Of a DNA stretch of 64,000 nucleotides, positions 1,891 through 48,093 are shown in pieces (position 1 is the stretch's first letter; the number at the start of each line of letters is the position of its first letter). The notes below the pieces were generated by a model. It did not search any database. It was not told where the DNA came from and saw only the letters and a program-made list of their open reading frames with translations. The position numbers were made by a program, and so were the translations under genes. The stretch lies in the NCBI GenBank assembly GCA_030998015.1, contig JARWMV010000250.1:62001-126000 (forward strand). Direction: 5' to 3'. The DNA is from Ceratorhiza oryzae-sativae (lineage: Eukaryota > Basidiomycota > Agaricomycetes > Cantharellales > Ceratobasidiaceae).

Positions 1891-4800
1891 AGCCCTCAAC
1901 CGCCAATTCACCTGATAAATCCAGACCCAGAAGATATCACAAATCCAGAGAGGGATGAGGTAGAAGACATGACCTGAACCATATACAAACAAGGCACAGC
2001 CTTGGCAGAAGAGGCAAAGACACAACCCCAGCCAGGTCCCAGAATCATAACCACTGCCAACCCTATTCACACCATTGCCACTGCCATCAGGGCAGGGCTC
2101 AAGGGACTTAGAGACAATAGCTATAGGGAACTAGAAAAGGCAATCATGGGTATAAATCAGTGTCAAATATTGCTAACCCAGCAAGAAGGAAATGTGGACT
2201 GGATGGTAAGGTCAATGGAAACAGCCAACAAAAATGTCCTCTATGTGGCAAAGAACTAGGACAACCTAAAAGCAGAAATGGGGAACCTGATAAAAGAATT
2301 AAAGGACATCTCCATGGAAATAAACTGGGTACTGGGAATGCAAGAGTGAAAGCTCAAAAGCTTAGAGAAGAAAACTGAAAATACAGGGGAGATCCTGACT
2401 GCACTAGAACAACAGGTAACTGATCTGGGAAATGAGCTCCAGAAAACAACTGAAGCAGGAAGGCCAAGGGAAAGGACACAAGAGACCAGGGGAAGAACTA
2501 GGGTGGTCATAGGAAGCCCCTCATGATCCCCCTCAGCCTCCCCAGTACGAACACCCTTTCTGGGAAGAACCTTCCAGGCTGAGTCCTCAATAAGACCCCA
2601 AACAGAACCTCCATCCCAAGCAAACCAACCTACCCTTGCTGCAAACCTAGAGAAGCTGTGCCAGAATTTTGCAGGACTCCGGCACCTGCAGCAGGACTCC
2701 TGCGCTTTTTGGCCATTCTGGCACTGGCACTGGCACTGGCTCGCCAATTGCCGGAGTCCGTGCCAGAATTCTGGCAGGTGCAGGAGCATGCCAGAATCCC
2801 GGGACTCCTGCAACTGGCTATGGTCAGAACTCACCACATCAAGTTGTGTAATAGCTCATTAGATGCGCAGAAGAGAGAGCATTCCAATGATATAGAGCAC
2901 GTTTCATACGAAATTCATTCTGGCAAATTTTACGCAGTTCTTTTGTTCGGGTCTTTGTGGCCAACATTTCCAGGGCCATAAACCTCACCACAATCTCTCG
3001 CAAAGTAGCTCATTAAATGCGCAAAAATCAGGAGATCACAGATATGTCATTTGCTCCGCGCAAAAAATTCGATAACGCATAGTTCGCTCCAAATTGATGC
3101 TCAGGAAATATTCTGGGAAATGTGCACATGCTATTTCACCACAAAGAAAGCTGTTTGAAGCTTATCCGACCAGCTAGCCTTTCTCCTGAGCTTGAAAAAC
3201 CCCTACTGACATTATATGTAGTAAATACATTGACTGGATAACTATGAACCGGGGTGTGTGCAGGCAACCTCACTGTCAACCCAGCAGAATCACTGCACAT
3301 GGTCGGAAATTTATGTTATAAGCTTGTTCCAGATGTTTCAGGTACCTGAGATAGGGCAATAAGCATCCCTGAATCTGTCTGTGATACTAAGAAAGCCAGA
3401 ATAGCACTGTGTGGGTGTCCATGGCGCATTTCAGGGGTTTTCATCATCAGGGGCGCTGTTCCCCCAGTTTCACCAGCTAAAACACCTTCAATCAGGCTGG
3501 TTTTTGGTATATGGAGTCCTTATGATAATGCGCATCGACTCCGCGCAAGGGAGCGAGGTTTGCACGGCTGGTTTCACTAGCGCTTGTGGCGCTGTTCAGG
3601 GGTTTCCCCCTTTATATCGCTGATAACTTTCGATAAAAGCGTTCGTTTATTATGAAAATATGTGCATTCAATTCCTCTCAGTGAGACGAGTCGATTGGTA
3701 TGTATATCGCCCCAATTAGAGCTCAGGATAGCGAGCTTGAACATCTGCGCATCTCCCTGAATATTTTTCTTAGACGATTCTGCGCCGATACTGCTCATTT
3801 CTTAACCGTTTGTAATCGAGTAAAGTACAATTTGATCCGCTGAATTTTGCGCATTTTATGAGTGCTTAATATATGCAATCCGTGGTGGTTGTGTACAGGT
3901 GACAATGTGCCAGTATTCAGGTATGCAGGTATGCAGGTATGCCAGTACTGCAGGACTCCGCCTAGGACTCTGGCACCCTTGAGGCTATTCTGGCACCTGC
4001 ACTGGCAACTGGCATGCCGGAATTTGCTGGAATTTTAGCCAGAATTCTGGCAAGTTCTGGCTGCAGGAGCCTGGCACAGCACCTCTATGCAAACCACACT
4101 CCTAAGGAGGCGCAACTGGGGAGACCCAGCAAATTTAATGGGAAAAAAGGGAAGGAAGCAGAGAACTTCATGATTGGCATGGAACTTTTCTTTGCTGACT
4201 ATGACAAATCAGCCTTTGACAACCAAAAAAAGATATCTGCTGTGTTAATGAACATGGAGGATGGGGAAGCAGCAAACTGGGCACAACCTTACTGCCAGAA
4301 ACTACTAGCAGGCAAACACACAGGTATCCTTGCATCCTGGAAGGATTTCAGGAAGGGATTCCTGGATGCTTTTAACAACCCAGTCATAAAGGAAAAGACC
4401 ATCCAGAAACTAAGGAAATTAATGCAAACCAAGAGTGCATTGGATTATGCAACCCAATTCTGGATCCTGATCCAAGAGGTAGACTGGAACCAGGAAGCCC
4501 TCAAGGACCAATTCAGGGAAGGGTTAAAACCCGAAGTACGACAAGAGATCTTAAGGATTGAAGTACTGGCAAATGAGGCTGAAGGTCCATCATATACCTG
4601 ATATCAATTAATCGACTTTGCCTGCAAAATGGACAACATGCAGTTTGCAAACCAGAAAATGAATGCAAGGACCAGCAACTCATCAAATTCAACCTGGGCA
4701 CCAGCAAAATACAAACAAGGGGGGAACAAGCCTTCAGGGACCAGCAGCAAACAGGGGAATACCCAAACTAACAATGTGGTAAGGATACCAAACAGTGAAA

Positions 4801-4957
4801 AAGACAGGCGAAGGAAAGAAGGACTCTGTATCAAATGTGGTAAATCAGGGCATGTCCTGAAGGACTGCTGAGGCCAGTGGACCTACAACAAAGCTAAGAT
4901 ACAAGGGAAGGCCAGCAGACAAGTTGAAGAAGAAAGCAGCTCTGAGTCAGAAAACTA
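1891..4957 (+). pseudogene. Family A copy 1 (A1) gag pseudogene, split by a hAT-type insertion
   Basis: It aligns base for base with gag of copy A2 (9631-11247). The capsid-like segment (from RPSKFNGKKGKEAENF) and the zinc knuckle (CIKCGKSGHVLKDC, about 4828-4869) are still readable. The coding sequence is interrupted at 2648-4087 by another transposon. Premature stops relative to A2 include TAG at 2257-2259 and TGA at 2347-2349, 2524-2526 and 4869-4871; the three TGA codons replace CGA arginine codons. The 5' part and 5' LTR are missing because a family B LTR abuts at 1890. The product would be the structural Gag that packages retroelement RNA; this copy cannot make it. Confidence 0.85.
2648..4087. 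mobile_element. Non-autonomous hAT-type DNA transposon (1,440 bp)
   Basis: The insert is absent from the otherwise identical A2 gag and is flanked by the 8-bp direct repeat TGCAAACC (2640-2647 and 4088-4095). Its ends are inverted repeats: TAGAGAAGCTGTGCCAG on the left and, read on the other strand, TAGAGGTGCTGTGCCAG on the right. An 8-bp duplication and TAGAG-type ends are characteristic of hAT elements. Subterminal regions are rich in short motifs around CCAGAATTCTGGC, which may be transposase-binding repeats. I see no transposase: the small open frames inside have no recognisable motif, so mobilisation would need an autonomous relative elsewhere. Confidence 0.85.
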
Positions 4958-4975
4958 ATTGGTCCTACCACTTCC

Positions 4976-7900
4976 ATGTTGGAGGACCCTGATATAACCC
5001 CTACCACAGATGTATGTTACCTTGAGAAGTCTAGTAATCAATCAATAATATACACTATGGTAGAGGGAATCATGGAACCAGCAAAGATGCTGATTGACTC
5101 AGGATCTTCAACCAACTTCATTGATAAGGCCTATTCAAGGGAAAAGGGGATTCCAACCACTCCCCTCAAACACAAGAAATCAATTGTGGCCATTGATGGA
5201 AATGAAATCAAGGATGCCATAGAAGAAAGGGCAGAACTAAATATTGAAGTGGAAGGAAAGACACTGAAATGCTCCCTTTATGTGATGACCCTAGGCAACA
5301 CAGACATAGTCCTAGGGAAAGAATGGCTTGAGGAAGCAGAACCTATCATAGATTGGAAAGACCTTACCATCTCATACCCAGACAAAATGGCAGCAAGTGA
5401 AAGCCTACAAATCCCAGAAGAATTTAGGGATTTTGAAGACCTGTTTGGGGAAGAAGGTTTCTGAGAACTTCCACCCCACCAAGGAAACCTGGACTTCAAA
5501 ATGGACCTGATCAAGGGAGCAGAGCTGCCAAAGCCCACAAAGAGGTACAGTATGTTGCCAGCAGAAACAAAGGCACTCAGGGAGTACCTAGAGGAGGAAC
5601 TAAGAAATGGAAAATGCACCCTGTTTCTATGTGAACAAAGCAGATGGAGGTCTTAGGTTGGTAGTTGACTACTGTAAGATGAATGACATCACCAAGCCAG
5701 ACAGGTTTCCACTTCCAATTCAAACAGAATTGATTGAGAGGCTGAAGGATGCAACCATCTATTCAAAAATGGACATTTGATGGGGGTTCAACAATATCAG
5801 GGTAAAAGAGGGAGACGAATGGAAAACAGCTTTCAGGACAGGAGAAGGCCAGTTTGAATGCTTGGTCATGCCATTTGGAGTAAAAAAAGGACCAAGAACC
5901 TTTACAAGGTTCATGATGGAAAAGTTCTGTGACATAATAGATGATTATGTGGTAATCTACATGGACGATGTACTAGTGTTTTCCAGAAACAGGGAAGAAC
6001 ATGTACAACATGTCAGGGAAGTGTTAAGAAGAATGAGGGAAACCACCTCTTCCTCAAACCACACAAGTGTCAGTTCTTTGTGAAGGAGGTAAGCTTCATC
6101 AGAATTGTCATATCCCCAGAAGGGATATTGATGGAAAAGGAAAAAGTAAAGGCAGTACTAGAATGGCCAGAACCTAACACAGTAAAAGAAGTCCAAGCAT
6201 TCCTAGGCTTCGTGGGGTTCTATAGGAGGTGGATAGAGAAGTTTAGCACCTTAGCCAAACCCCTCACAGATCTCACTCAAAAGGATGTCAAATTCCTGTG
6301 GGAGAGAAAACAACAAGAAGCATTTGAAGCTATTAAAGAAGCAGTAGCAAGAGAACTGGTCTTAATCCACCCAAACACAAACAAGCCATACATACTGGAA
6401 ACAGACACCTCAGGAGTGGCCATGGGGGCAGTACTAAGCCAAAAGGGTGATGACAACCAATTGCATCCAATTGCCTTCCTATCAAAGAGCTTCACCCCAC
6501 CAGAGAAAAATTATGATACCTACAACAAGGAGTTGCTTGCAATTGTTAGGTCCTTAGAGCACTGGAGGTTATACCTAGAAGGGATAGAAGAACCTATTGT
6601 GATATACACTGACCATAGGAACCTCCAGTACTGGCAAAATGCCCAGATGTGGAATAGAAGGCATGCCAGATGGTATCTCACTCTGGCACCCTTCAATTTT
6701 CAGATTGTGTATAGACCAGGGAAACTCTCACAGAAGCCAGATGCCCTTTCCAGGAGGAGTGACCATGGGGACACCCCTATGGAACCACAGATCATGATTC
6801 CAGAAGAAAGGTTCATAGGTTTCAAGGCAGAGGTACAGGGGAATTTATGGGAGGTGTCAGAGCTACGACCTGAACAGTAATGTCAAACACCTAAGTGGTG
6901 ATGACAAGCCTATGGGCAGCGATGCCGGAGGCTTTTCTGACAACGTCTAAGGTAGGACGTGCAGTGAGGGTGCGATAAGACGCAAGGAGGTGGGGTAGTA
7001 AGTGCACTTGTCCTTAAGAGGACTGGGCAGGGACTATGGACTGGTAAGTCACACAGGTAGTAGAGGGATACGACAGGAGGTCGAGTTCTGAGGCTTAAGG
7101 CTCTCAGACTCTCCCTTATATATTCATGGCCGAGGCAGTACAAATCAAATACCAGGACCAATAAGAAGCTAACAGTGCCACGTCACTATAGAACATTCTG
7201 GTAACACCAAACATTGAGTCAACAACAACAAGGTCACGTGACATGAAGGTAAATAAACCGCATATATCTGAATAAACGGGACTTGTCCAAAACATCGTAA
7301 AAAGGAAGTTATAAAATATAGAAAATTCATAATAAAATCGTGCTCATGGTCTAGGCCATGACAGGAGGAGCTTAAAGAAGCTCAGGAAGAAGATGAATCT
7401 ATCAGATCCTTAAGGCTGAACATGGCAAATAAAGAACAACTACCACCCTCATTACAGAAGGAATTTAGACAGTATGAAATGAAGGAGGGTCTATTAAGGT
7501 ATGACAATAGGCTCTACATCCCAGATGACAAGGACTTGAGGTTGAGCCTCCTTGAGGAGTGTGATCATGCCCCTGTGGCAGGTCATCAGGGACAAGCCTG
7601 AACACTAGAATTACTATCAAGGGATTACTATTGGCCAGGAATGAAGGCCCAAGTAAACCAATATGTGGAATCTTGTGAAACATGTCAAAGAAGCAAAGGA
7701 CACAAACAAGGTGCTCCCCTGAAGCCCTTACCAATCCCATGGAAACCATGGGCAGATGTCGCATATGATTTCATCGTCAAATTACCTGTCTCAAAGGGGT
7801 ACGACAGCATCTTGACAGTTGTAGATTGCTTCTCCTGGCAGGCCCATTTTGTACCATGTCTGGAGAGCACCAATGCAGAAGAACTGGCAGAAATATTCAT

Positions 7901-8401
7901 AAGGCAGGTATGGAGACGTCACGGGACCCCAGAAACCACTGTCTCAGACCAAGGGCCAACCTTTAACAGCCAATTCCTAAAGGCTCTAGTCAAGGGAATT
8001 GGGACAAAGCCCAGATTCTCCACTGCCTTCCATCCAGAAACAGATGGACTGTTGGAAAGAACAAATCAATGGGTAGAAGGGTTCTTAAGAACCTTCTGCA
8101 ATTATAGACAAGATGATTGGGTAAAATGGTTACCCATTGCTGAATTCTGCCATAACAACCACATAAATGCTACAACAGGACAAACCCCATTTGAAATGGT
8201 ATATGGGAAAAACCCAAGATGGGTTGTCTGAGGGGGAGAAGAACTGTCTGAGGCACCTGCTGCAGACAACATGCGTAATCAAATGGAAAAGGTATGGGAT
8301 GAGGCAAGAGCCTCAATGGAATTACACCAACAAATGGAAAAGAAAGGGAAGGAATTCAAGGTAGGGGACAAGGTTTGGCTGCTCCTAACAAACTTCTTGT
8401 C
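4976..8401 (+). pseudogene. A1 pol pseudogene: protease, reverse transcriptase, RNase H, integrase
   Basis: The aspartic protease motif (IDSGSSTNF, about 5092-5118), the reverse transcriptase YMDD box (about 5960), the RNase H region (ILETDTSG, about 6390) and the integrase core (ISxH-type zinc region to QTDGLLERTNQ, about 8060) are in the usual Ty3/gypsy order. Stops at 5462-5464, 5778-5780, 7599-7601 and 8229-8231 are all TGA at places where A2 has CGA or a second derivative of it. About 50 bp of RT sequence near 5610 is missing compared with A2. A solo LTR splits the frame at 6855-7363, and the 5' LTR of A2 cuts it off at 8401 before the chromodomain. Confidence 0.88.
6855..7363 (+). mobile_element. 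Solo LTR (509 bp) inserted in A1 pol
   Basis: The insert is absent from A2 pol. It begins TGTCAGAGC, ends GGCCATGACA (TGTCA/TGACA termini) and is bracketed by the 5-bp direct repeat GGAGG at 6850-6854 and 7364-7368. These are the hallmarks of an LTR left by recombination between the two LTRs of a full element. A TATA-like stretch (TTATATATTC) lies near 7115. The LTR is not recognisably the same family as A, B or C in this window. Orientation is arbitrary, assumed from the TATA position. Confidence 0.85.
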
Positions 8402-9296
8402 TGTTATGACCTGTCAAACGGACATAACAAAACAACCAAATATTTCTACAGATTTATGGCATTTTTCCTAAGCGGAACAAGCCATAAACAAGGTCACATG
8501 ACCTCGGCGCTTAGCCAGCGCTTACGGTGGTTACCCTGAACTCGCTCCAGCATTTCTCTCCATTGTTACTTGGAGCGAGGAGCGAGTTGTCACATGATCT
8601 TGGCGCTTACGGCAGGATCACATGACCTCAGTGCCTACGGTGGTTACCCTGAACTCGCTCCAGCATTTCTCTCCCTTGTTACTTGGAGCGAGGAGCGAGT
8701 TATCACGTGATCTTGGCGCTTACAGCATGATCACATGACCTCAGCGCCTATGGTGGTTACCCTGAACTCGCTCCAGCATTTCTCTCCCTTGTTACTTGGA
8801 GCGAGGAGCGAGTTGTCACGTGATCTTGGCGCTTACAGAAGGGTCACATGACCTCAGCGCTTACAGTTGTTACCCTGAACTCGCTCCAGCATTTCTCTCC
8901 CATGTTACTTGGAGCGAGGAGCGAGTTGTCAAGTGATCTCGGCGCTTACGGCAGGATCACGTGACCTCAGCACCTACCCCTCGGACCTTGCGCGGCTCTA
9001 TAAGATTCAGAGCCGCACAAACTTAAGACAAACAATTACCTAACCCATAGTACTGTACATAACCTACACCTACTGCGGAGTGTGCTTAGATAATACGTCC
9101 GCAGCCACTGCAGCCACAGGTATATATAAGGAGGATAAAGCAAGACTGGACGCCTGAGCTTGCTTTATCTGGTCAACCACCATAGACCATAGCAAACACT
9201 GTAACTAGAACACTCAATATACACAGCATCGCACCAAACTGTCAATGCAGCCACTACTTAAGTGCTCCACAAGGGAGCCTCCAGAGGGTCACGACA
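8402..9296 (+). mobile_element. 5' LTR of family A element A2 (895 bp, four tandem units)
   Basis: It begins TGTTATGACC and ends GGTCACGACA. The middle holds four units of about 115 bp (starting near 8528, 8645, 8757 and 8870), each containing GTTACCCTGAACTCGCTCC, TTACTTGGAGCGAGGAGCG and paired CACGTGA or CACATGA boxes. TATA-like sequences occur at about 8997 (CTATAAG) and 9121 (TATATATAAGG). It is inserted into A1 pol after ...AACTTCTTGTC (8401). It matches the LTRs at 18279-18947 and 53916-54697 except for the number of units. Confidence 0.9.
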
Positions 9297-9416
9297 TTAT
9301 AAAGCAAGCTCTTAACTTAACTAGTGCGAACATAAGTATACTACACAGATACTAAGGGCTGAGTACACGAGAAAACCAGCTAACTCCTGTGATACATAAG
9401 AGAACACAAAGAAACT

Positions 9417-11247
9417 ATGTCACAGAGACCACAAACTCGATCTCAAAGCAGAGTGGCAAATAGTAGGCCACAATCACCCAAACCCATTGCTTCCCCAGAG
9501 GCTGAAGGTAACCCAGATGAGACCCTCCAAGGAATGCCAGGGGGGTTGCCACAAAACCCACAACCAGTGGCTCAACCCAACCCCACTCAGGCCCCCATCC
9601 TGGGAGGGGAAATAGGGGGAATACCACTCCGCAGCCCTCAACCCAATTCACCTGATAAATCCAGACCCAGAAGATATCTCAAATCCAAGAGGGATGAGGT
9701 AGAAGATATGACCGAACCATATACGAACAAGGCACAGCCTTGGTGGAAGAGGCAAGGACACAACCCCAGCCAGGTCCCGGAACCATAGCCACTGCCAACC
9801 CTATTCACACCATTGCCATGGCCATCAGGGCAGGGCTCAAGGAACTTAGAGACAATAATCATAGGGAACTAGAAAAGGCAATCATGGGTATAAATCAGTG
9901 TCAAATATCACTAACCCAACAAGAAGGAAACGTGGACTGGATGGTAAGGTCAATGGAAACATCCAACAAAAATGTCCTCTATGTGGCAAAGAACCAGGAC
10001 GACCTAAAAGCAGAAATGGGGAACCTGATAAAAGAATTAAGGGACATCTCCATGGAAATAAACCGGGTACTGGGAATGCAAGAGCGAAAGCTCGAAAGCT
10101 TAGAGAAGAAAACCGAAAACACAGGGGAGATCCTAATCGCACTAGAACAACAGGTAACCGATCTAGGAAATGAGCTCCGGAAAACAACTGAAGCAGGAAG
10201 GCCAAGGGAAAGGACAGAAGAAACCAGGGGAAGAACTAGGGTGGTCATAGGAAGCCCCTCACGATCCCCCTCAGCCTCCCCAGTACGAACACCCTTTCTG
10301 GGAAGAACCTTCCAGGCTGAGTCCACAATAAGACCCCGAACAGAACCTCCATCCCAAGCAAACCAACCTACCCTTGCTGCAAACCACACTCCTAAGGAGG
10401 CGAGACTAGGGAGACCCAGCAAATTTAATGGGAAAAAGGGGAAGGAAGCAGAGAACTTCATAATCAGCATGGAACTTTTCTTTGCTGACTATGACGAATC
10501 AGCCTTTGATGACCAAAAAAAGATATCTGCTGTGCTAATGAACATGGAGGAGGGGGAAGCAGCAAACTGGGCACAACCTTACCGCCGGAAACTACTAGCA
10601 GGCGAACACACAGGTATTCTTGCATCCTGGAAGGATTTCAGGAAGGGATTCCTGGATGCTTTTAATGACCCAGTCATAAAGGAAAAGACCATCCGGAAAC
10701 TAAGGAAATTAACACAGACCAAGAGTGCATTGGATTATGCTACCCAATTCGGATCCTGATCCAAGAGGTAGACTGGAACCAGGAAGCCCTCAAGGACCAA
10801 TTCAGGGAAGGGTTAAAACCCGAAGTACAACAAGAGATCTTAAGGATTGAAGTACTGGCAAATGAGGCTGAAGGTCCATCATATACCTTAGATCAATTAA
10901 TCGACTTTGCCTGCAAAATGGATGACATGCAGTTTGCAAACCAGAAAATGAATACAAGGACCAGCAACTCATCAAATTCAACCTGGGCACCAGCAAAATA
11001 CAAACAAGGGGGGAACAAGCCTTTAGGGACCAGTGGCAAACAGGGGAATACCCAAACCAACAACATGGTAAGGATACCAAACAGTGAAAAGGACAGGCGA
11101 AGGAAAGAAGGACTCTGTATCAAATGCGGTAAATCAGGGCATGTCCTGAAGGAGTGCCGAGGCCAGTGGACCTACGACAAAGCTAAGATACAAGGGAAGG
11201 CCAGCAGACAAGTTGAGGAAGAAAGCAGCTCTGAGTCGGAAAACTAA
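9417..11247 (+). pseudogene. A2 gag (frameshifted)
   Basis: The start is the ATG at 9417 (MSQRPQTRSQSRV), 120 bp after the LTR. The frame changes near 9740-9788 and again near 10750, where A2 lacks one base present in A1 (CAATTCGGATCC against CAATTCTGGATCC). Apart from these shifts the protein runs from a proline-rich, basic N-terminus through a coiled-coil-like stretch (about 9990-10170) and capsid-like region to a CCHC zinc knuckle (CIKCGKSGHVLKEC, about 11116-11157) and a serine/glutamate-rich end at 11247. I see few base-substitution stops, in contrast to A1. Product: Gag structural protein of the retroelement particle. Confidence 0.85.
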
Positions 11248-11264
11248 TTGGTCCTACCACTTCC

Positions 11265-14200
11265 ATGTTGGAGGACCCCAATATAACCCCTACCGCAGAT
11301 GTATGTTACCTCAAGAAGTCTAGTAATCAATCAATAATATACACTGGTAGAGGGAATCATGGAACCAGCTAAGACGCTGATTGACTCAGGATCTTCAACC
11401 AACTTCATCGATAAGGCCTATTCAAGGGAAAAAGGGATTCCAACCACTCCCCTCAAACACAAGAAATCAATTGTGGCCATTGATGGAAATGAAATCAAGG
11501 ATGCCATAGAAGAAAGGGCAGAACTAAACATCGAAGTGGAAGGGAAGACACTAAAATGCTCCCTTTATGTAATGACCCTAGGTGACACAGACATAGTCCT
11601 AGGGAAAGAATGGCTTGAAGAAGCAGAACCTATCATAGATTGGAAAGACCTTACCATCTCATACCCAACGAAATCAAGGCAAGGGCAGCAAGTGAAAGCC
11701 TACAAATCCCAGAAGAATTTAGGGATTTTGAAGACCTATTTGGGGAAGAAGGTTTCCGAGAACTTCCACCCCACCGAGGTAACCTAGACTTCAAAATGGA
11801 CCTGATCGAGGGAGCAGAGCTGCCAAAGCCTGCAAAGAGGTACAGTATGTCGCCAGCAGAAACAAAGGCGCTCAGGGAGTACCTAGAGGAGGAACTAAGA
11901 AACGGGAAAATAAGGCCCAGCCAGTCAGTTGTAGCTGCACCCTGTTTCTATGTGAACAAAGCAGATGGAGGGCTTAGGTTGGTAGTCGACTACCGTAAGA
12001 TGAATGACATCACCAAGCCAGACAGGTTTCCACTTCCAATCCAAATAGAATTGATTGAGAGACTGAAGGATGCAACCATCTATTCAAAAATGGATGTTCG
12101 ATGGGGGTTCAACAACATCAGGGTAAAAGAGGGAGATGAATGGAAAACAGCTTTCAGGACAGGAGAAGGCCAGTTTGAATGCTTGGTCATGCCATTCGGA
12201 GTAAAAGAAGGACCAAGAACCTTTACCAGGTTCATGATGGAAAAGTTCCATGATATAATAGACGATTATGTGGTAATCTACATGGACGATGTACTAGTGT
12301 TTTCCAGAAACAGGGAAGAACACGTACAACATGTCAGGGAAGTGTTAAGAAGAATGAGGGAAAACCACCTCTTCCTCAAACCACACAAGTGTCAGTTCTT
12401 TGTGAAGGAGGTAAGCTTCATTGGAATTGTCATATCCCCAGAAGGGATATCGATGGAAAAGGAAAAGGTAAAGGCAGTTCTAGAATGGCCAGAACCTAAC
12501 ACAGTAAAAGAAGTCCAAGCCTTCCTAGGCTTCGTGGGGTTCTATAGAAGGTGGATAGAGAAGTTTAGTACCTTAGCCAAACCCCTCACAGATCTCACCC
12601 AAAAAGATGTCAAATTCCTGTGGGAAAGAAAACAACAGGAAGCATTTGAAGCTATCAAAGAAGCAGTAGCAAGAGAACTGGTCCTAATCCACCCAAACCC
12701 AAACAGGCCATACATACTGGAAACAGACACCTCAGGAGTGGCCATGGTGGCAGTACTAAGCCAAAAGGGTGATGACAACCGATTGCATCCAATTGCCTTC
12801 CTATCAAAGAGCTTCACCCCACCAGAGAAAAATTATGACACCTACGACACAGAGTTGCTTGCAATTGTTAGGTCCTTAGAGCACTGGAGGTTATACTTAG
12901 AAGGGACAGAGGAACCTATTGTGATATACACTGACCATAGGAACCTCCAGTACTGGCAAAATGCCCAGATGTGGAATAGAAGGCATGCCAGATGGTATCT
13001 CACTCTGGCACCCTTCAATTTTCAGATTGTGTACAGGCCAGGGAAACTCTCACAGAAGCCAGATGCCCTTTCCAGAAGGATCGACCATGGGGATACCCCT
13101 ATGGAACCACAGATCATGATTCCAGAAGAAAGGTTCATAGGTTTCATGGCAGAAGTACAGGGGAATTTCTGGGAAGAGCTTAAAGAAGCTCAGGAAGAAG
13201 ACGAATCTATCAGATCCTTAAGGCTGAGTGTGGCAAATAAAGAACAACTACCGCCCTCAGTACAGAAGGAATTTAGAGTATGAAATGAAGGAGGGCCTAT
13301 TAAGGTATGACAATAGGCTCTACATCCCAGATGACAAGGACTTGAGGTTGAGTCTCCTTGAGGAGTGCCATGACGCCCCAGTGGCAGGTCATCAGGGACA
13401 AGCCCGAACACTAGAATTACTATCAAGGGATTACTATTGGCCAGGAATGAAGGCCCAAGTAAACCGATACATGGAATCTTGTGAAACGTGTCAAAGAAGC
13501 AAAGGACACAAACAAGGCACTCCCTGAAGTCCTTACCAATCCCATGGAAACCATGGGCAGATGTCGCATATGATTTCATCGTCAAATTACCTGTCTCAAA
13601 GGGGTACGACAGTATTTGACAGTTGTAGATCGCTTCTCCCGGCAGGCCCATTTTGTACCATGTCTGGAGAGCACCAATGCAGAAGAACTAGCAGAAATAT
13701 TCATAAGGGAGGTATGGAGACATCACGGGACCCCAGAAACCACTGTCTCAGACCGAGGGCCAACCTTTAACAGCCAATTCCTAAAGCCCTATACAAAGGA
13801 ATTGGGACAAAGCCCAGATTCTCCACTGCTTTCCATCCAGAAACAGATGGTCTGTGGAAAGGACAAATCAATGGGTAGAAGGGTTCTTAAGAACCTTCTG
13901 CAATTATAGACAAGATGATTGGGTAAAATGGTTACCCATTGCCGAATTCTGCCATAACAACCACGTAAATGCTACAACAGGACAAACCCCATTTGAAACA
14001 GTATATGGAAAAAACCCAAGATGGGTTGTCCAAGAGGGAGAAGAACCATCTGAGGCACCCGCTGCAGACAACATGCGTAATCAAATGGAAAAGGTATGGG
14101 ATGAGGCAAGAGCCTCAATGGAATTACACCAACAAATGGAAAAGAAAGGGAGGGAATTCAAGGTAGGAGACAAGGTTTGGCTGCTCCTAACAAACCTCTC

Positions 14201-14669
14201 GTCCAAGAGACCCTCCAAGAAACTGGACAACCAAAAAGGGGGGCCCTTTGAAATCACAGAAAAGATCTCATCCCATGCATATCGCCTGGACCTACCTAAA
14301 ACCATACGTGTACACAATGTATTCCATGTAAATCTCCTCTCGCCATTCACAGAAGATAAAGACTTCCAAAGAAGGCAGGCCAAACCACCACCAATCATAA
14401 TGGAAAAAGGAGAGGAGGAATACAAGGTGGACCACATTGCAAATTATGAATGGCGGAATGGCGAGCTGTTTTACCAAATCAGATGGAAGGGCTACGACCC
14501 AATAGAAGACACAATGGAACGTGCCAGCAAGTTTGCTGACATGAAAGAGGTTCTAAATGACTTGCAAAGGCACTTACCAGACGCACCAATGCCAGTCAAG
14601 ACAAGTCAGCACTCAGGTGACTCAAAAGGCAGGCCAAAGAGAACCAAACGAGGATCTGGAAAGCTTTAA
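11265..14669 (+). pseudogene. A2 pol: protease, RT, RNase H, integrase, chromodomain (small deletions)
   Basis: Protease (LIDSGSSTNF, about 11377), reverse transcriptase (YMDD at about 12281), RNase H (ETDTSGVAMV, about 12722) and integrase follow in Ty3/gypsy order. The product ends with a C-terminal chromodomain (KVDHIANYEWRNG...QIRWKGYD, about 14425-14500), so this is a chromovirus. The 11640-13283 stretch is open for 547 codons. Compared with A1 there are small deletions near 11355 (2 bp), 13277 (2 bp), 13524, 13613, about 13790 and 13853, each shifting the frame in the integrase region. These could be decay or sequencing errors in short homopolymers. Unlike A1, catalytic and arginine codons are largely intact. 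Confidence 0.88.
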
Positions 14670-14722
14670 AAAGAGCCATCCAGGATACCCAAGAAAGGCC
14701 AGAGCCTGCTCTACCACCTCAC

Positions 14723-15577
14723 TTGCACCACAACACACCTGCGAAACCCCAAAACATGCCTTTCGTCACTCACCCAGTCGCACATCCCAACCATTACACC
14801 CCACTTGCTGAAAATCAGGTGGCCCCACTTCGGCAGCCACCCACCACCAGGTGGCCAGCACCCTACCCTGGCAGGGAAAATCGTCCTAAACCAGGGATGT
14901 ACTGCTCCAGTGTGGAAGACGCCCAGAGGTACACTGAACGACTGTTGCCAGGGGCTAACCTAGTATACATCCCAAAGAAGTTAAGGGATGAAAGGAACTG
15001 GATTGACGATGACAAGTACCTGGATCCCAGGTTAGGGGTCCTGACATGGCATGGAAGCCGGAAGCCAACAACAAGAAACGCCTTGTTAAGAACACCAATG
15101 TATGTCGTCGACAATATCGTGGGACCAACAGTTGACGTGGTGACCAAGGCAGCAAGACAACAGAGGAGGGCCACAGGCCAAATGGCAGACGGAGGGGACT
15201 GGGAGGTGGAGCGCCAAGCAAAGGCATTGCTGGAAGAATGGAAGTTGACACCAGCTGCACCGTATGTGGGACTGCTCGAAGCAACTACCACTGATGAGAT
15301 GTTTACTGCTATCAGGACAAAGCAGGCAAACATGAATGACTTCCAAAATTGGGTGAAGGTGCACCCAAACAAAAACACCAATTACGACACTGATATGACA
15401 AGCCTTACATCAAGCCTAGAATCACTGGTCGTGGCTGAGGAAGAAGCCAAGCCAGAAATAAAGGAACCCACCCTGGACCCAGCTGCGGAGGAACCCAAAC
15501 AGGACTGGGACTGGTGGGAAAACGAGCTTGTCGAAGCTCTGGAGGAGGTGCCACTGTTGGAACCAACCCCCATATGA
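14723..15577 (+). CDS. Uncharacterised 284-aa ORF in the A2 cargo region
   Basis: The frame opens 53 bp after the pol stop, in the retroelement sense direction. I do not recognise the protein. Residues 1-50 are rich in Pro, His and Asn, residues 55-190 look globular (for example LVYIPKKLRDERNW and MYVVDNIVGPTVDVV), and the last 60 residues are strongly acidic with Trp pairs. There are no membrane segments. It is convergent with the minus-strand gene ending at 15659, with an 81-bp AT-rich gap. It could be an extra retroelement protein made by reinitiation, or part of the same acquired cassette as Rep. The first in-frame ATG is used; the true start is uncertain. Confidence 0.5.
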   Translation: MHHNTPAKPQNMPFVTHPVAHPNHYTPLAENQVAPLRQPPTTRWPAPYPGRENRPKPGMYCSSVEDAQRYTERLLPGANLVYIPKKLRDERNWIDDDKYLDPRLGVLTWHGSRKPTTRNALLRTPMYVVDNIVGPTVDVVTKAARQQRRATGQMADGGDWEVERQAKALLEEWKLTPAAPYVGLLEATTTDEMFTAIRTKQANMNDFQNWVKVHPNKNTNYDTDMTSLTSSLESLVVAEEEAKPEIKEPTLDPAAEEPKQDWDWWENELVEALEEVPLLEPTPI

Positions 15578-15658
15578 CCACTTTGCCTCCCACAAATTGT
15601 CTCCTGAATGTATAAGAGTTTTTATTTTCCTTTACACACCAAACTTAATACATTTCTT

Positions 15659-16200
15659 TTACTCTCTATTTTTACATTTGCCCTTGAGGGGCCGGGTATA
15701 GGGCTTCTTGCCCCTGTTATCCTTCTTATTGGTCCGAACAACTGACCGGGTAGTGGGCTGCAGCCAAGGAGCCTCCCCCCCTGGGAGGTCAGCCATGTAG
15801 TTCTGGAAACACCCAGAACCAGACGCTGCAAAGGGCGAAGCCTCATCAAACAAGGGAGCAGAGCCCTCCTTGAAGAATTCAGCAAGAGCAGCCTGGTGAG
15901 ACCGCTCCTCAAAGGACTTGTACTCCTGATCAACAAGCACCCAGACACACTCAAGGGTGGCCTCATGGGCCCGACCATCAAGGAGGATGTGCTCTTCTAC
16001 AGAATGAGTTAGCTACGTGAGAATGACGAAGAACGAACACACATACCTGGCACCCCACAGAAGAACCAATCCCCAACACCTTGATAGAAGTCTTCAAGGG
16101 AGGCGTCACACACAGCATCACAGTAGGCGCAGTACTCCCCCTCAGGGAGAGACCAGCAGGTGCAGTCAAGGGGATTGTAGTTAAGGGAAATAACACGCAT
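15659..16200 (-). CDS. Two-exon gene for a 163-aa protein with a Cys-rich N-terminus, function unknown
   Basis: Exon 1 is 16200-16047 and exon 2 is 15996-15659. The 50-nt intron (16046-15997) has a GTATGT donor, a CTAAC branch site and a TAG acceptor, and removing it joins two frames exactly. Residues 12-31 contain five cysteines (C13, C15, C24, C27, C31) with another at 48, suggestive of metal binding. The rest is acidic in the middle and ends in a Lys/Arg-rich tail (residues 138-163). It is divergent from the Rep gene across a 424-bp intergenic region. CRESS replicons often carry a Rep gene and a second gene in divergent orientation, but I see no evidence that this is a capsid protein. The perfect frame and splice sites argue that it was functional recently. 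Confidence 0.6.
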
Positions 16201-16624
16201 AGTAAAAGAACGGGATGAGGAAGGAAAACAACACAACCACGAACATTAAAAAATCACGGTGCAACACAATAACTTGCACAAACATCAAAACAAGGACTGG
16301 TCAGGTGACACCAACAGACACGTGACCATCTGCCAGAAAACAAACAACAAAGCATGGGAATCACATGACCTAGCCTAGTCACGTGAATATACACTATGCC
16401 CTAACTACCGGAGGGGTCAGAGAGGGGGCACTGACTGAAGTGGGGGAGCGGAGGCCCCGAGCGTAGCAAGGATCAAGGCCAACACGGAGGAACAGGTGGG
16501 AGGGCACCCCTCGGAGATGCGTCATCACTGAAATAAGGTCATGTGATCACAACAAATGCAAGACAGAGTCATGTGACAATCAAAACGGACCTTGCAGCTT
16601 ATATAGACAAGCACAAGGCCCAAG
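16201..16624. promoter_or_regulatory. Divergent promoter region with repeated CACGTG/CATGTG boxes
   Basis: This 424-bp region separates the starts of the minus-strand two-exon gene (16200) and the Rep gene (16625). It contains at least five E-box-like sites: ACACGTGAC near 16319, TCACATGAC near 16362, TCACGTGAA near 16379, TCATGTGATC near 16540 and TCATGTGAC near 16569. A TATA-like TTATATAGA lies about 25-30 bp before the Rep ATG. The same CACGTGA words recur in the family A LTR units, so both may respond to the same bHLH-type regulators (inference). A G-rich patch (GGAGGGG, GAGGGGG, GTGGGGGAG) lies at 16410-16455. I found no obvious CRESS-type nonanucleotide stem-loop. Confidence 0.5.
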
Positions 16625-17969
16625 ATGACCCGCACTCTCATGCTCTCTTCCCAGTCCTCAAATACCTCTAAAACTGTAAACGATGCTAAGCGGAAATGGA
16701 TCGAACGCGGCAACACCCCAGCCAAGCAGATCAAGCGAAGGGCAGAGGTCGGCGTCGCCATTGCCAGTGCCCTCGGTATCAAGCTGAGCCCCCTTGCCTG
16801 CTTCTATGCGGCCTACGCCGACAGATCGAGGGTCCGAAGAGCTGACTGAAACCGCGCCGGCCCCTTGGTTCCGCGTCCAGACCAGGGCGGTGCTGCTGAC
16901 CTGGTCGAAGCTACGCGATCAGCCCTCAAGTGGGCTCGTCGCCCGATACGAGGTGTTCTGCTGCCAATGGCCAAATCATTGGGCGACTTTGGTGGTGGTG
17001 GAACGCCACAACCCCAAGGAACTGAACTACGACCTGGCCTGGCCCCTCCATGTCCACGCCCTCTCCATCAGTCAGGAGCGGAAGGGCGGCTGGAACACCC
17101 AGAACACCCGGTTCTGGGACTTCAAGGGGCAACACCCCAACATCCTGCCAAAGGACCTCAAGGACAGACCAGGAGGCAACCCAGCAAGGGATGCCTTCAA
17201 CTATCTTTGGAAGGACGTTGGAGCTAATGGCAAGGAGATAGAGGACCTGATGGCGGGGGACCTGACCTTGGACAGGTTGGAGGAGATTTTGGTAAAGGGA
17301 AAGGGCGGAAAAAGGTCAAGGATGGAGGCAGACTTGGAGGATGGGACAGAGATTGTTGCCTCAGCAACAAAACAGGAGTACTACCAGGCGTTCAAGCGCC
17401 TCCGCCCCCTCCAGATGGTGACGACGTGGAACTCGGTACGAGCATATGCCGAGTACACATACAAGGAAGACCGGGGTTGCATGCCTGCAATCCCTGTGGA
17501 GTTAGAGGTCCCGGAAGACCGGGAGCACATCGACCGAGCAGACAGATGGTTTGCCAAGGAAGTCGAGAAGAAGGGAAGAGGGGTGCGCCATCGCATCCTG
17601 GTGATAGAAGGAGAAACTGGAACGGGGAAAACGGCATATGCACGATCCAAGGGCTGCCACAGCCAGATGTGCAATGTGTGGAATATGGGCAACTTGTTGG
17701 AAGATGCCAACATTTGGATCCTGGATGACATGGTCCAGTCGAATGGAAAGTACTTGCTCAAGGCCCTGAGCCAGTACAAGGCGGACTTCACAGGCAGGTA
17801 CGCACATGTGAAATCAATGAAGGTACGGCCAACAGTCATTCTGGGAAATAGCCGGTCGGCAATCATGAAATGTTGGTTGGACATAGAGGGGGAAGAAGGG
17901 GACTTATGGGTATCAAGAAATGTGGAATGGGTGTATGCAGGAGGAAAGCCATTCTTTGTATTTCCTTAG
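16625..17969 (+). CDS. CRESS-DNA-like rolling-circle replication protein (Rep), two exons
   Basis: Exon 1 is 16625-16775, exon 2 16825-17969, with a 49-nt GT-AG intron that restores one frame of 431 codons. HUH endonuclease motifs are present: motif I VLLTWSK (residues 73-79), metal-binding motif II HVHAL (126-130), and motif III YLWKD (177-181) with the candidate catalytic Tyr177. A GRS-like block (RFWDFKGQHPNI, 146-157) lies between motifs II and III as in geminivirus-type Reps. The helicase half has Walker A GETGTGKT (313-320), Walker B IWILDD (347-352) and motif C PTVILGN (386-392). Such proteins nick and re-join a replication origin and unwind DNA. All key residues seem intact and there is no internal stop. 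It lies inside an LTR retrotransposon, before its polypurine tract. The intron lacks a clear branch site, so the N-terminal exon is less sure than the rest. Confidence 0.82.
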
Positions 17970-18086
17970 AATAATTTATGGTACTGTACAACTTCTGCTA
18001 TGCCCATCCAAACAGTTGGGGCTTTCTGAGAAGAAGCAGACAAATCCTCACCCCTAAATAACCTCCACAACAAAGAAAAGAAAAAC

Positions 18087-18213
18087 AATCTCATGTAACG
18101 GAGAGGTTAAGGGGTCTAGCCTGACTCAGCCTGACCTCATCAAACGATACTGAATCAGCCGAAAGGTTGTTGGTTCGAGTCCAGCGCCCTTAACCTCCTT
18201 GGTGCATGAGATT
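18087..18213 (+). other. tRNA-like hairpin with a box B sequence, near the 3' end of A2
   Basis: A canonical Pol III box B / T-arm is present (GTTGG TTCGAGT CCAGC, box B at 18172-18182). It is preceded by a small hairpin AGCC-GAAA-GGTT (18157-18168) like the variable arm of a type II tRNA. Upstream is a box A-like GGAGAGGTTAAGG (18100-18112). Longer-range pairing joins GAGGTTAAGGG (18103-18113) to CCCTTAACCTC (18187-18197), and AATCTCATG (18087-18095) to CATGAGATT (18205-18213). A conventional cloverleaf cannot be folded cleanly by eye, so this may be an intron-containing or decayed Leu/Ser-type tRNA, a SINE-like head, or a structured element end. Confidence 0.4.
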
Positions 18214-18264
18214 CCTTTTGCATAACGAACTAAACCATGTCTCAAGGTCCCCCAAGACATGTCC

Positions 18265-18278
18265 AAAGGGGGGGATAA
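18265..18278 (+). other. Polypurine tract of A2
   Basis: The run AAAGGGGGGGATAA directly precedes the 3' LTR, the position where plus-strand DNA synthesis is primed. Its location shows that the Rep cargo lies within the unit copied by the retrotransposon, not outside it. Confidence 0.75.
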
Positions 18279-18947
18279 TGTTATGACCCGTCAAACGGAC
18301 ATAACAAAATAACCAAATATTTCTACAGATTTATGGCACTTTTCCTAAGCGGAACAAGCCATAAACAAGGTCACGTGACCTTGGCGCTTAGCCGGCGCTT
18401 ATGGTGGTTACCCTGAACTCACTCCAGCATTTCTCTCCATTGTTACTTGGAGCGAGGAGCGAGTTGTCACGTGATCTTGGCGCTTACAGAAGGGTCACGT
18501 GACCTCAGCGCTTACAGTTGTTACCCTGAACTCGCTCCAGCATTTCTCTCCCATGTTACTTGGAGCGAGGAGCGAGTTGTCACGTGATCTCGGCGCTTAC
18601 GGCAGGATCACGTGACCTCAGCACCTACCCCTCAGACCTCGTGCGGCTCTATAAGATTCGGAGCCGCACAAACTTAAGACAAACAATTACCTAACCCATC
18701 GTACTGTACATAACCTACACCTACTGCAGAGTGTGCTTAGATAATACGTCTGCAGCCACTGCAGCCACAGGTATATATAAGGAGGATAAAGCAAGACTGG
18801 ACGCCTCAGCTTGCTTTATCTTGTCAACCACCATAGACCATAGCAAACACTGTAACTAGAACACTCAATATACACAGCATAGCACCAAACCGTCAACGCA
18901 GCCACTACTTAAGTGCTCCACAAGGGAGCCTCCAGAGGGTCACGACA
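18279..18947 (+). mobile_element. 3' LTR of family A element A2 (669 bp, two tandem units)
   Basis: Termini TGTTATGACC and GGTCACGACA match the 5' LTR at 8402. Only two of the CACGTG-bearing units are present (near 18408 and 18521) against four in the 5' LTR. The flanking base pairs do not form a target duplication with the 5' side: TTGTC before 8402, GATCA after 18947. Confidence 0.9.
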
Positions 18948-35990: not shown

Positions 35991-36188
35991 AGGTTAGGTT
36001 GAGAGGGAAAGCTAGGTTGGGGATTAGGTATCAGAATTTTTGGGTATCACACAGCTAACATTCAAACCTGGCATGCACACATGGGTGCAGGAAAAAAGAA
36101 AGAAATTACAAATACAGCTTGAGACAAGTGCAACTATACTGTGTGTAATTGGAGCCACATGAAGTCACACAGAGGTCTTGTGAAAAAC

Positions 36189-37200
36189 CATTGAAAATTT
36201 AATATCCTGTTTACAAATATCTTGAATGAAGCAAAGCATGCATACCAGGTATGCATACAGAACTGTCAAGGAAAATCAATGTAAATGCAATATTTGATTT
36301 GATAATACCATGCATGAGGAGAAGCATATGTACCAGGTATGCACTTGGAGATCACACAGAAAATGAATGAAAATGCAATATTTGATTTGCAAATACCTCA
36401 CATGAGGATATGTGTGCGTACCAGGTACACACTCAGAGATCACACAGAAAATGAATGAAAATGCAATATTTGATTTGCAAATACCACACATGATAACAGG
36501 CATGCATACCAGGTACGCACTCAGAGGTCACACAGAAAATGAATGAAAATGCAATATTTGATTTGCAAATACCACAGATGAGGATAAGTGTGTGTACCAG
36601 GTATGCACTCAGAGGTCACACAGAAAATGAATGAAAATACAATATTTGATTTGCCAATACCACACATGAGGATGAGCATGCATACCAGGTATGCACTCAG
36701 AGGTCACACAGAAAATGAATGAAAATGCAATATTTGATTTGCAAATACCACACATGAGGATATGTGTGCATACCAGGTACACACACAAAGGTCACACAAA
36801 AAATGAATGAAAATGCAATATTTGATTTGCAAATACCACACATGAGGATATGTGTGCATACCAGGTATGCACTCAGAGATCACACAGAAAATGAATGAAA
36901 ATGCAATATTTGATTTGCAAATACCACACATGATAACAGGCATGCATACCAGGTACGCACTCAGAGGTCACACAGAAAATGAATGAAAATGCAATATTTG
37001 ATTTGCAAATACCTCACATGAGGATATGTGTGCGTACCAGGTACGCACTCAGAGATCACACAGAAAATGAATGAAAATGCAATATTTGATTTGCAAATAC
37101 CACACATGAGGATAAGTGTGTGTACCAGGTACGCACTCAGAGGACACACAGAAAATGAATGAAAATGCAATATTTGATTTGCAAATACCATGCATGAGGA
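36189..37200. repeat. 88-bp satellite array, about 11-12 units
   Basis: The word GAATGAAAATGC recurs at 36365, 36453, 36541, 36629 (variant), 36717, 36805, 36893, 36981, 37069 and 37157, exactly 88 bp apart each time. Degenerate units lie at about 36277 and 36189. Each unit holds a palindrome of the form GCATACC-A-GGTATGC (variants GTACC..GGTAC). The array lies upstream of the Penelope-like gene and ends beside a telomere-like repeat. 88 is not a multiple of three, so the open frames across it are incidental. Confidence 0.95.
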
Positions 37201-37213
37201 GAAGCATACGTAC

Positions 37214-37235
37214 TAGGTTAGGTTAGGTTAGGTTA
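37214..37235 (+). repeat. Telomere-like (TAGGT)n stretch
   Basis: Four tandem copies of TTAGG directly follow the 88-bp satellite. The unit is one G short of the usual fungal telomere repeat TTAGGG, so this is telomere-like, not proven telomeric. Confidence 0.7.
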
Positions 37236-37249
37236 TTAAGGCAGAGTAG

Positions 37250-37640
37250 GGCCAGGTAGGGAACAGGAAACCAGGTAGGGAACAGCAAAACCAGGTAGGG
37301 AACACCCCAGTATGTGGGAACTCCCACCTGGGGAACAAGGTAGGGAGAACCCAGGATGAGAAACCAAGGCAAAGAACACATAAGCAAGTTCATCATGACT
37401 CAGGACCAAGGACAATACAACAAAACCTCTGTACTGGTACATACAGGAAGAAAGCAGGGAGCAATTTGCAATATGACTTCCCTAACCTGATGATAGTGGC
37501 TGTGCCCAAGTCCCACTGGTGCTGCCTTCACAAGTGCGTACCCAGTACACACACCAGACATGCAAAGCACAATTTTCAATATAATTTCCGTAACCTGATG
37601 ATAGTGGCTGTGCCCAAGTCCCACCAGTGCTACTGGGAGT
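37250..37640. repeat. Short tandem repeats: CCAGGTAGGGAACA units and a 106-bp direct duplication
   Basis: Three copies of CCAGGTAGGGAACA-like units lie at about 37251-37305. A segment containing TAACCTGATGATAGTGGCTG starts at 37485 and again at 37591, giving a 106-bp period over two copies. I see no gene in 37236-37872. Confidence 0.75.
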
Positions 37641-38450: not shown

Positions 38451-39762
38451 TGTTATGGATCACTAACATTTTCTATTATTTTAGTCTGCTCTGCCAACCT
38501 CAAGCGATGCCTCTGTAATTAATTTGTGAAATACTTGAATTTGTATGCGCTCTGAATCGTACTATTTTCCGTTCCATTAAATAGTACAAATCTCCCGCTC
38601 TCCAACGCATATTTTATTAAGATTTTACGATAAGATCTCAGAGAGATACAGAGGTTGCGATATTTCCTCCTATCAGGAGATATTGATTACAACATCGCAC
38701 CGCTCATATCTCGGCAACCGCTTACGCTATCAAAGCGATCTTGTGCTCTATCGATAGCTAATCTTCGGCGGTATCTGCTGCCCGAAGATGGTCGCGATCG
38801 ACCGGATCCTCGCGCCGGAATGGCCCGAAGATCATTAGAATCTTACTGGACCATCAATCAAGATCTAATGACTCCAGTGAGTCAGGAGAGCTTCCCAAGT
38901 TGATCCAGAAGCTTCTCTGACTCACTTTATGACTCACTGAGATGTAGCCTCCATTCATTACATGTATATACTATGATAATATGATCTACAAGCCAATAGC
39001 AGGTCTCAGATGCATCAATGCCTTCGATCCACACCCTGTGTTTACTCTTTTATCCTATACTGGGCTAGGGTGTACCCCAAGTATAGCAGTACCCTCTTTT
39101 GATGATCGCACTGGCATGCATGTATCTATTTGGCTCTGGAATGCCCTCCTCAGGGTATAAAAGGACCTCCTCTGAGGCCCTTCCAGACCACCTCCTTCAC
39201 TCCTCTACTCAACCCAGACTGGTTATTGGTTTTTTTTTTCTCTTTCTATTTCTCTTGTCTGTGAGTGATTTCTTATATAACTAGTACTGAGGAATAAAGT
39301 ACCATATTAGTTATATACTGTCTGAGTCATTGTATCTTATATACAGAGATATATAAGGATACAATATTGCCTGATTGAGCATGACATTAAGTACCAGCTA
39401 TTAGAGGAAATCTAAGTACCTGTAGCTGAGGAAGTACACACATTAGGCAGGCCACCATCTATCCTATAAGCTATCGCTTAAGCCTAGTATTAAGATTAGT
39501 ATCAGTTAGTCCAAGCAACTAGGGCTGAACTACATTTAAGATATCTAAGGGAACCTGACCATAGTAGTCTTGCTCTTTATACCTATAAATTAGTCAGTTT
39601 ACACTGTGAAAGATTAAGACTACCTTGAGTGTTACTTGATTGCATTGCAACTACTTTGAGCCTTCCTACTCTAGTCTAAGAAGTATTGAGTACGATTAGT
39701 GTATACTAACATATCTACATTTGCTTAAGCTCTAGATATTCAAGTTACCCTGACCTGTAACA
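38451..39762 (+). mobile_element. Family B LTR (1,312 bp), plus orientation
   Basis: It begins TGTTATGGATCAC and ends CCTGACCTGTAACA, so its ends form the inverted repeat TGTTA/TAACA. A TATA box (TATAAAAGG, 39156-39164) and an AATAAA signal (about 39292) are as expected for an LTR. It is nearly identical to 46267-47571. It points the opposite way to the family B coding region that follows, so it cannot be that copy's own 3' LTR in the usual arrangement. Confidence 0.9.
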
Positions 39763-42700: not shown

Positions 42701-42798
42701 AATTGAATAGAAAAAGATTTGGTAGCCATTGTTTGATTTGCTAATGCATTATAATTGTGTACAGCCTGTGTATCCTGGTCATCTGCATTTACTCCCAA
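39763..42798 (-). pseudogene. Family B copy 1 (B1) pol: protease, RT and RNase H, no integrase
   Basis: On the minus strand the order is protease (about 42525), RT (RLCIDYRK-type block, LDALAGFTQLQI, FRRMPFGWRNGP) and RNase H (YRLYTDACDFG, about 40560). The protease triad D-S-G reads D-stop-G (TGA at about 42526). A second TGA lies at 41011-41013. The RT catalytic box is YIGN in place of YIDD (copy 2 has YIDD), so it is inactive. The frame ends at the LTR junction at 39763 in the RNase H/connection region, and integrase is missing. Confidence 0.88.
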
Positions 42799-42836
42799 GT
42801 CCTCTGTTTCATTAGATTCAGAAGGCTGGGAATTAA

Positions 42837-47571: not shown

Positions 47572-47572
47572 T

Positions 47573-47589
47573 TGGTGAAGCGACCCAGG
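47573..47589 (+). other. Candidate primer-binding site of B2
   Basis: TGGTGAAGCGACCCAGG begins one base after the LTR end. TGG is the complement of a tRNA 3' CCA, so this is where a tRNA would prime minus-strand synthesis. I cannot name the tRNA from sequence alone. Confidence 0.6.
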
Positions 47590-47618
47590 TCCTTACATCA
47601 AGTAACTATCAACTAACA

Positions 47619-48059: not shown

Positions 48060-48093
48060 GTACAAATTCATCTTGAATTGGAGAAGAACTGTT

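Follow-up and report, generated by a model that had tools for sequence, protein, structure and literature searches.

The nearest precedent for a rolling-circle replication protein (Rep) in a retroelement is provided by the Terminons, whose reverse transcriptase (RT) is Penelope-like. These giant retroelements of bdelloid rotifers are described, in the part of a review that deals with them (PMC6431247), as telomeric, up to 40 kb long, and able to carry accessory rolling-circle Rep proteins, and circular intermediates are suggested there. A different kind of system is the geminivirus-like transposon of the fungus Tuber melanosporum, in whose genome 42 intact or remnant Rep genes were counted. 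According to the relevant sections of its account (PMC3198968), this DNA transposon is bounded by terminal inverted repeats (TIRs) of 37 bp and encodes transposase open reading frames (ORFs), the Rep frame of the reconstructed copy is interrupted, and neither an RT nor a long terminal repeat (LTR) is named. Additionally, Ty3/gypsy elements with captured extra domains have been described, for example in Phalaenopsis, where, in the corresponding passages of the report (PMC9289625), a fixed extra ORF kept in the element family encodes an AlkB-type, cellular-type RNA demethylase. The main text of a survey of plant endogenous geminiviruses (PMC7758297) never mentions retrotransposon, LTR, or Gypsy, and none of the papers listed among the matches in the open-licence PMC literature describes an LTR retrotransposon that carries Rep.

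The element studied here, A2, lies in a 64,000-nucleotide stretch of a Ceratorhiza oryzae-sativae contig (hereafter the window). Like the Terminons, it is a retroelement with an accessory Rep; like the Tuber transposon, it is mobile in a fungal genome and encodes a Rep of geminivirus-like type; and like the Phalaenopsis elements, it belongs to a family that keeps a fixed extra ORF. In contrast to the Terminons, A2 belongs to the Ty3/gypsy chromoviruses: it has LTRs, an integrase, and a chromodomain, and its Rep is a gemini-type HUH-helicase protein. The Ty3/gypsy-type pol with integrase and the LTRs rule out its assignment to the Terminons. It has both the RT and the LTRs that the account of the Tuber element does not name, and its extra ORF is a DNA-virus-type replication initiator, whereas that of Phalaenopsis is of cellular type. 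Pfam matches in the window comprise RVT_1 (117 bits), RT_RNaseH, and SH3_Tf2-1, with Chromo at 24.9 bits, just below its cut-off of 25.1, and at 27.4 bits in a sister family.

On the forward strand, A2 begins with a 5' LTR of 897 nt (8402 to 9298) that contains 113-nt tandem repeats and TCACGTGA-type palindromes, with eight TCAYRTGA sites. After the LTR, where a primer binding site would be expected, the sequence begins TTATAAAGCAAG. Next come the gag region (9417 to 11247; Retrotrans_gag and Ty3_capsid matches), the protease-RT-RNase H region of pol (11359 to 13283; RVT_1 and RT_RNaseH), and the integrase with its chromodomain (13300 to 14669; SH3_Tf2-1 and Chromo); the gag and integrase frames are broken in A2. 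ORF3 (14723 to 15577) has no Pfam match. On the reverse strand, a gene for a Cys-rich protein of 163 amino acids with a basic tail (15659 to 16200) has two exons (16200 to 16047 and 15996 to 15659) and a GT-AG intron (16046 to 15997), and a Pfam scan of exon 2 returned no family. The intergenic region (IGR; 16201 to 16679) between this antisense gene and the divergent Rep gene contains four TCAYRTGA palindromes. Downstream of Rep, also on the forward strand, lie a long tRNA-like hairpin (18081 to 18219), with the T-arm/B-box-like sequence GGTTCGAGTCC, and a polypurine tract (18264 to 18278) adjoining the 3' LTR of 669 nt (18279 to 18947). Within 1891 to 9298, a further element, A1, has its integrase broken off exactly where the 5' LTR of A2 starts, and the far side of A2 is unrelated; this boundary is a rearranged junction rather than a clean nested insertion. 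Elsewhere in the window there are an 88-nt tandem repeat array (36078 to 37257) and a separate repeat family (38451 to 53958) of inverted copies with RT/RNase H ORFs, into which none of the listed Rep match rows falls.

An earlier, sequence-only reading of the window had described an intact-looking Rep gene inside A2 that starts at an ATG at 16625, is spliced at 16775/16825, and ends at 17969. The present analysis bears out a Rep frame with its end at 17969, inside the LTR-bounded chromovirus, downstream of the integrase/chromodomain ORF and upstream of the polypurine tract. A comparison of 21 copies led to rejection of the spliced model: its start codon occurs in one of them, that of the window, and the other 20 also lack the acceptor AG. 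The conserved gene is a single unspliced frame, open from 16680, with its ATG at 16683 (16683 to 17969, forward strand). To call it intact was too generous for the window copy, in which a TGA (16785 to 16787) lies in frame upstream of the HUH domain, as it does in 3 of the 20 others; the HUH and helicase part does lie wholly downstream of the next in-frame ATG, at 16806. A probable TATA box of Rep, TATATAGA (16600 to 16607, forward strand), does not vary among the 21 copies. Annotated proteins of this kind with 427 to 429 amino acids exist in several Ceratobasidium records, and in others the N-terminus is longer or different. Because Rep gave at least 111 match rows in the genome (at least 150 for its last 133 residues), the frame does not owe its existence to chance. 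Judged by eye, 39 of 111 rows are stop-free, one being a fragment, and 72 contain at least one internal stop; the predominance of TGA among these stops is in line with CpG-site decay. A small ORF of about 69 amino acids (16640 to 16843), read in a different frame across the N-terminal part of Rep, is 41 to 45% identical in the sister family and resembles the C4-type ORFs nested in geminivirus Rep.

Motifs I to III, Walker A, and Walker B of the encoded protein were found where they had first been read. According to the motif scheme that we assume for this family, the motifs are motif I (LLTWS, 16893 to 16907, Ser changed in 2 of 21 copies), the HUH motif II (LHVHAL, 17046 to 17063, both His in all copies), motif III with the catalytic Tyr (YLWKD, 17202 to 17216, Tyr and Lys in all copies), Walker A (GETGTGKT, 17610 to 17633, Lys in all copies, final Thr in 20, Thr259 in 18), Walker B (WILDD, 17715 to 17729, both Asp in all copies), and a motif C-like ILGN (17838 to 17849, Asn in all copies), all on the forward strand. 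Eight of nine key residues are invariant across the 21 copies and the ninth, the last Thr of Walker A, is present in 20, with 101 of 373 positions varying. This order of motifs is that of gemini/CRESS-type Reps. Between motifs II and III, the stretch NTRFWDFKGQHPNI (17103 to 17144, forward strand) resembles the geminivirus Rep sequence, and we take it to be the segment named GRS.

Homology to gemini-type Reps was obtained by hhalign (98.3%, E 1.5e-14 as a single comparison, 312 collinear columns) and by BLASTP against P0111 (E 2e-12, also a single comparison), and the window Rep is 16 to 25% identical to the Reps of geminiviruses/genomoviruses and phytoplasma plasmids. A structure model shows the HUH endonuclease fold, with low confidence in its helicase part. 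Pfam scores remained below the cut-offs: PF08283 gave 14.1 bits for the window Rep and at most 19.5 bits, for P0008, against a cut-off of 24, with E values up to 1 in 11 of 33 members, and PF00799 matched 1 of 33 members (E 0.23). By comparison, a phytoplasma plasmid Rep scored 14.8 bits for PF08283 and 72 for PF00799. Consequently, the protein is filed as a distant homologue and not as a member of either family. A whole-genome search with both profiles gave no match, and the controls gave none either. In a tree, the family forms one clade (100/100) far from the five outgroup rows, and its place among CRESS Reps is unreadable because of the long branches. A pattern search of IMG/VR, an uninformative collection for this purpose, matched 90 stretches, of which none was confirmed, and its P-loop pattern matched none; the five rows from a plasmid search were no better than chance (best E 0.7). 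From its sequence features, we classify the protein as a predicted CRESS-type, gemini-like HUH endonuclease/helicase that is distantly homologous to known Reps. It shares with the Reps of geminiviruses, genomoviruses, and phytoplasma plasmids the motif order, the GRS-like stretch, the collinear profile, and the endonuclease fold. Unlike those systems, A2 is not an autonomous small circular replicon, and the canonical rolling-circle origin nonanucleotide (NANTATTAC, TAATATTAC, or TAATWTTA) is absent from both strands of 8402 to 18947.

Looking for other copies with Rep at the same place between pol and the polypurine tract, as the first reading had suggested, revealed many. We compared the 20 loci that, after the window, scored best among the at least 111 Rep match rows. 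In 20 of 20, the post-Rep stretch and then the LTR come after Rep (in more divergent form in L023 and L027), and ORF3 lies upstream in 19; in the remaining one, L012, the upstream genes are beyond the fetched stretch. From the RT side, 88 of 90 match rows were used, after two second pieces of split matches had been dropped, with Rep places taken from the at least 150 rows and 13 more chosen by eye; the genome counts are lower bounds. A same-strand Rep lies within 7 kb downstream of RT in 68 of the 88 rows, mostly at 3.7 to 6 kb, and at 7 to 16 kb in 10; the other 10 have none, and at least two of these (C187 and C190) sit at a contig end, where Rep would be. By comparison, an opposite-strand Rep within 7 kb downstream was found in 0 of 88 rows and a same-strand Rep within 7 kb upstream in 2. 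With fewer Rep rows (110 of 111), 53 of the 88 RT rows have a Rep within 14 kb.

Furthermore, perfect 5-bp target site duplications (TSDs) surround the whole Rep-bearing unit in four of seven copies tested, namely CATAA (C249), ATCAG (C240), CTCGA (C8), and TGATT (C68), whose LTR pairs are 96.6 to 98.4% identical; C233, L027, and A2 itself have no TSD. Thus, the Rep-bearing unit moves whole, by LTR integration. The earlier reading had named two outcomes as counting against it: a single Rep-bearing copy with an assembly break at the edges of Rep, and Rep as an unrelated insertion with its own target duplication that is decayed elsewhere. The many copies sharing one place and the TSDs around entire units point the other way on both and reject a one-off insertion or an assembly break. 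A limited repeat search of the IGR, post-Rep, and LTR stretches, each by itself, showed no ends that a separate Rep insertion would have left.

Several structural variants were noted among these copies. In five of five pairs (C249, C240, C8, C68, and C233) the 3' LTR exceeds the 5' LTR by 113 to 114 nt, one repeat unit (for example, 669 versus 556), perhaps through slippage in strand transfer; the C233 LTRs may not be one pair, since this copy has no TSD. In A2 the lengths are reversed (669 nt at the 3' end and 897 at the 5' end). ORF3 and antisense exon 2 (window 14723 to 15996, compared in L009 to L028) occur in about three types, with ORF3 about 97, 87, and 69% identical to the window in DNA sequence, and copies with different types have pol about 97 to 99% and Rep about 95% like the window. 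The copies are therefore mosaics with exchangeable ORF3/exon 2 cassettes. L027 (C164) is a deletion derivative that has both LTRs and retains the gag start, ORF3, the antisense gene, and Rep, having lost protease-RT and part of the integrase. L023 and L027 join the common pol to a divergent Rep-LTR end (Rep 88.6 to 88.8%, LTR about 85%) and are a recombinant subfamily.

The same arrangement extends to the sister family, in which we compared the 3' sides of two loci, L029 and L030, with RTs 64 to 65% identical to that of A2. Both have integrase-chromodomain, ORF3, antisense gene, IGR block, Rep, hairpin, and LTR in the order of A2. Identity to the window is 67 to 69% for Rep, 39 to 44% for ORF3, 60 to 62% for antisense exon 1, and, at the DNA level, 76 to 77% for the IGR block (16341 to 16528); the integrase is 66.5% identical in L030 and is represented in L029 by two pieces of 46 to 55%. 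As a gene order shared at this RT distance makes the capture of Rep old, the recent capture considered at first can be set aside. Both sister Reps have a sense GT-AG intron after the codons for GLVA, and exactly that stretch is missing in the window Rep, as expected if spliced RNA was reverse transcribed. In the antisense gene, the GT and AG at the intron ends are conserved in all 20 rows (L012 has no row), which fits a gene that is transcribed opposite to the element RNA; splicing in both genes is deduced from the genomic sequence. In one Ceratobasidium gene model (P0028, RhiLY_12191), Rep is fused to a C-terminus that by eye resembles the basic tail of the antisense protein (GKKPY.RP); the antisense gene may thus be present in AG-Ba too.

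Comparison between copies, another check proposed at the outset, places Rep under purifying selection, with a mean dN/dS of 0.21; within the 373-codon part, 1 of 21 copies is gapped, by three bases in all. At non-CpG transitions, 65 of 292 silent and 19 of 590 changing sites vary in the 21 copies (ratio 0.14, p 2e-18), against 22 of 460 and 6 of 919 in RT (ratio 0.14). Since Rep is selected much as RT is, it is unlikely to be a parasite of the retroelement, one of the roles initially suggested. Without the divergent L023 and L027, the Rep counts are 25 of 311 silent and 10 of 616 changing (ratio 0.20, p 4e-6), and non-CpG transversions in this set give no selection signal (silent 2/289, changing 11/1539). 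The transition ratio at CpG sites is 0.84, which we read as decay after insertion. Higher silent diversity in Rep than in RT was considered as a separate feature and discarded, being largely due to CpG content and to L023 and L027 (25/311 versus 21/460 without both). For the other genes, the main type of ORF3 (11 rows) showed no selection at non-CpG transitions (silent 4/263, changing 7/497), the C-terminal part of the integrase no clear selection (silent 6/248, changing 5/485, p 0.2), and the antisense gene only a weak signal at non-CpG sites (exon 1, 20 rows, changing 3/315 and silent 3/89; exon 2, 13 of 20 rows used, changing 8/654 and silent 6/207). Together with its fixed position, these observations make it very probable that Rep is a fixed, selected accessory gene of this chromovirus family.

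How such a gene might serve the element can be outlined as follows. A chromovirus lineage would long ago have captured Rep from a geminivirus- or genomovirus-like single-stranded DNA (ssDNA) replicon, perhaps along with its divergent promoter region, and would have kept it as an accessory gene at the position where retroviruses have env. The retained nuclease and ATPase residues suggest that the substrate of the protein is DNA of the element itself, in the simplest case extrachromosomal circles of its cDNA with one or two LTRs. Rep would bind this DNA, with the shared TCACGTGA-type palindromes and the 3' hairpin as candidate sites, nick the circles, and initiate their rolling-circle replication; circles that are otherwise dead ends could then supply more template to be transcribed or integrated. 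Both families have the hairpin downstream of Rep and before the polypurine tract (z of -4.6 in the window and -4.5 in L030), and 4 of its 42 pairs have double changes among eight sequences; ARAGORN found no tRNA in it and Rfam no match. A rolling-circle step on the element's own DNA circles seems to us the most likely role of Rep, at a probability somewhat short of even. We hold it at this level because A2 has no nonanucleotide origin and because a tandem array with shared LTRs, as a trace that rolling-circle copying might leave, was not found at the one place examined (L037, where an LTR abuts mid-gag), one of the two RT rows with a same-strand Rep within 7 kb upstream. Still more tentative is the wider picture of a hybrid replicon, in which reverse-transcribed circles of an LTR retrotransposon would be multiplied by its own Rep, RNA- and DNA-templated cycles alternating, maybe as ssDNA or double-stranded DNA circles; two replication modes would then work in one unit.

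The main rival to the rolling-circle role, possible though doubtful, is that Rep is a DNA-binding regulator or anti-silencing factor. It would bind its own divergent promoter and the LTRs, repressing or activating transcription of the element or countering host methylation, and its rolling-circle activity would be secondary or lost. Geminivirus Reps, which regulate their own promoter and weaken silencing, offer the model. The TCAYRTGA palindromes are distributed accordingly: eight and five occur in the two LTRs and four in the IGR, where the Rep promoter would lie, and none in the gag-pol-ORF3, antisense gene, Rep, and post-Rep stretches of A2, with a background density of 0.33 per kb in 19000 to 64000. 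The sister locus L030 has four in its LTR part and two in the IGR. These palindromes may be Rep-binding iterons or host E-boxes; as the motif is, we presume, also a typical E-box of host bHLH proteins, they may say nothing about Rep. The TATA-like box of its own, the lack of an origin motif in A2, and the heavy CpG decay of the copies, which suggests methylation, would also fit a regulator. However, a protein that did nothing but regulate could dispense with the catalytic Tyr, both His of motif II, the Walker A Lys, and the Walker B Asp, all of which are retained in every copy in a protein where more than a quarter of the positions vary.

Those same residues bear on a rather improbable alternative, in which Rep is mainly a helicase or DNA-end factor for the reverse transcription or integration of linear cDNA and does not act on circles. 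The conserved Walker motifs and the location of Rep inside a unit that integrates with TSDs agree with such a function, but the nuclease motifs are as conserved as those of the ATPase, and Ty3/gypsy elements are not known to need a helicase of their own. Very improbable is a functionless hitchhiker, in which case an endogenous virus or a DNA element of CRESS origin would have entered a single ancestral retroelement and been passively amplified. Fungi are known to harbour endogenous Reps and, in one case, a TIR transposon with Rep (in the relevant sections of PMC3198968), and decay after insertion is evident from the stops in most match rows; nevertheless, purifying selection, conservation over two families, and the lack of own terminal repeats in the limited search speak against it. 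An assembly chimera, which the missing TSD of A2 might have suggested, is refuted by identical junctions in 20 further copies and the perfect TSDs, and its probability is negligible.

These results emphasize that two major kinds of selfish replicator, the LTR retroelement and the CRESS ssDNA replicon, are linked here in one selected transposing unit. Retroelement DNA circles are usually regarded as dead ends, and the A2 family lets one test whether they can be used productively. Furthermore, carriage of Rep by a chromovirus would be a further route for ssDNA-virus genes to spread through eukaryotic genomes, and it may account for some of the matches recorded as endogenous Reps in fungi.
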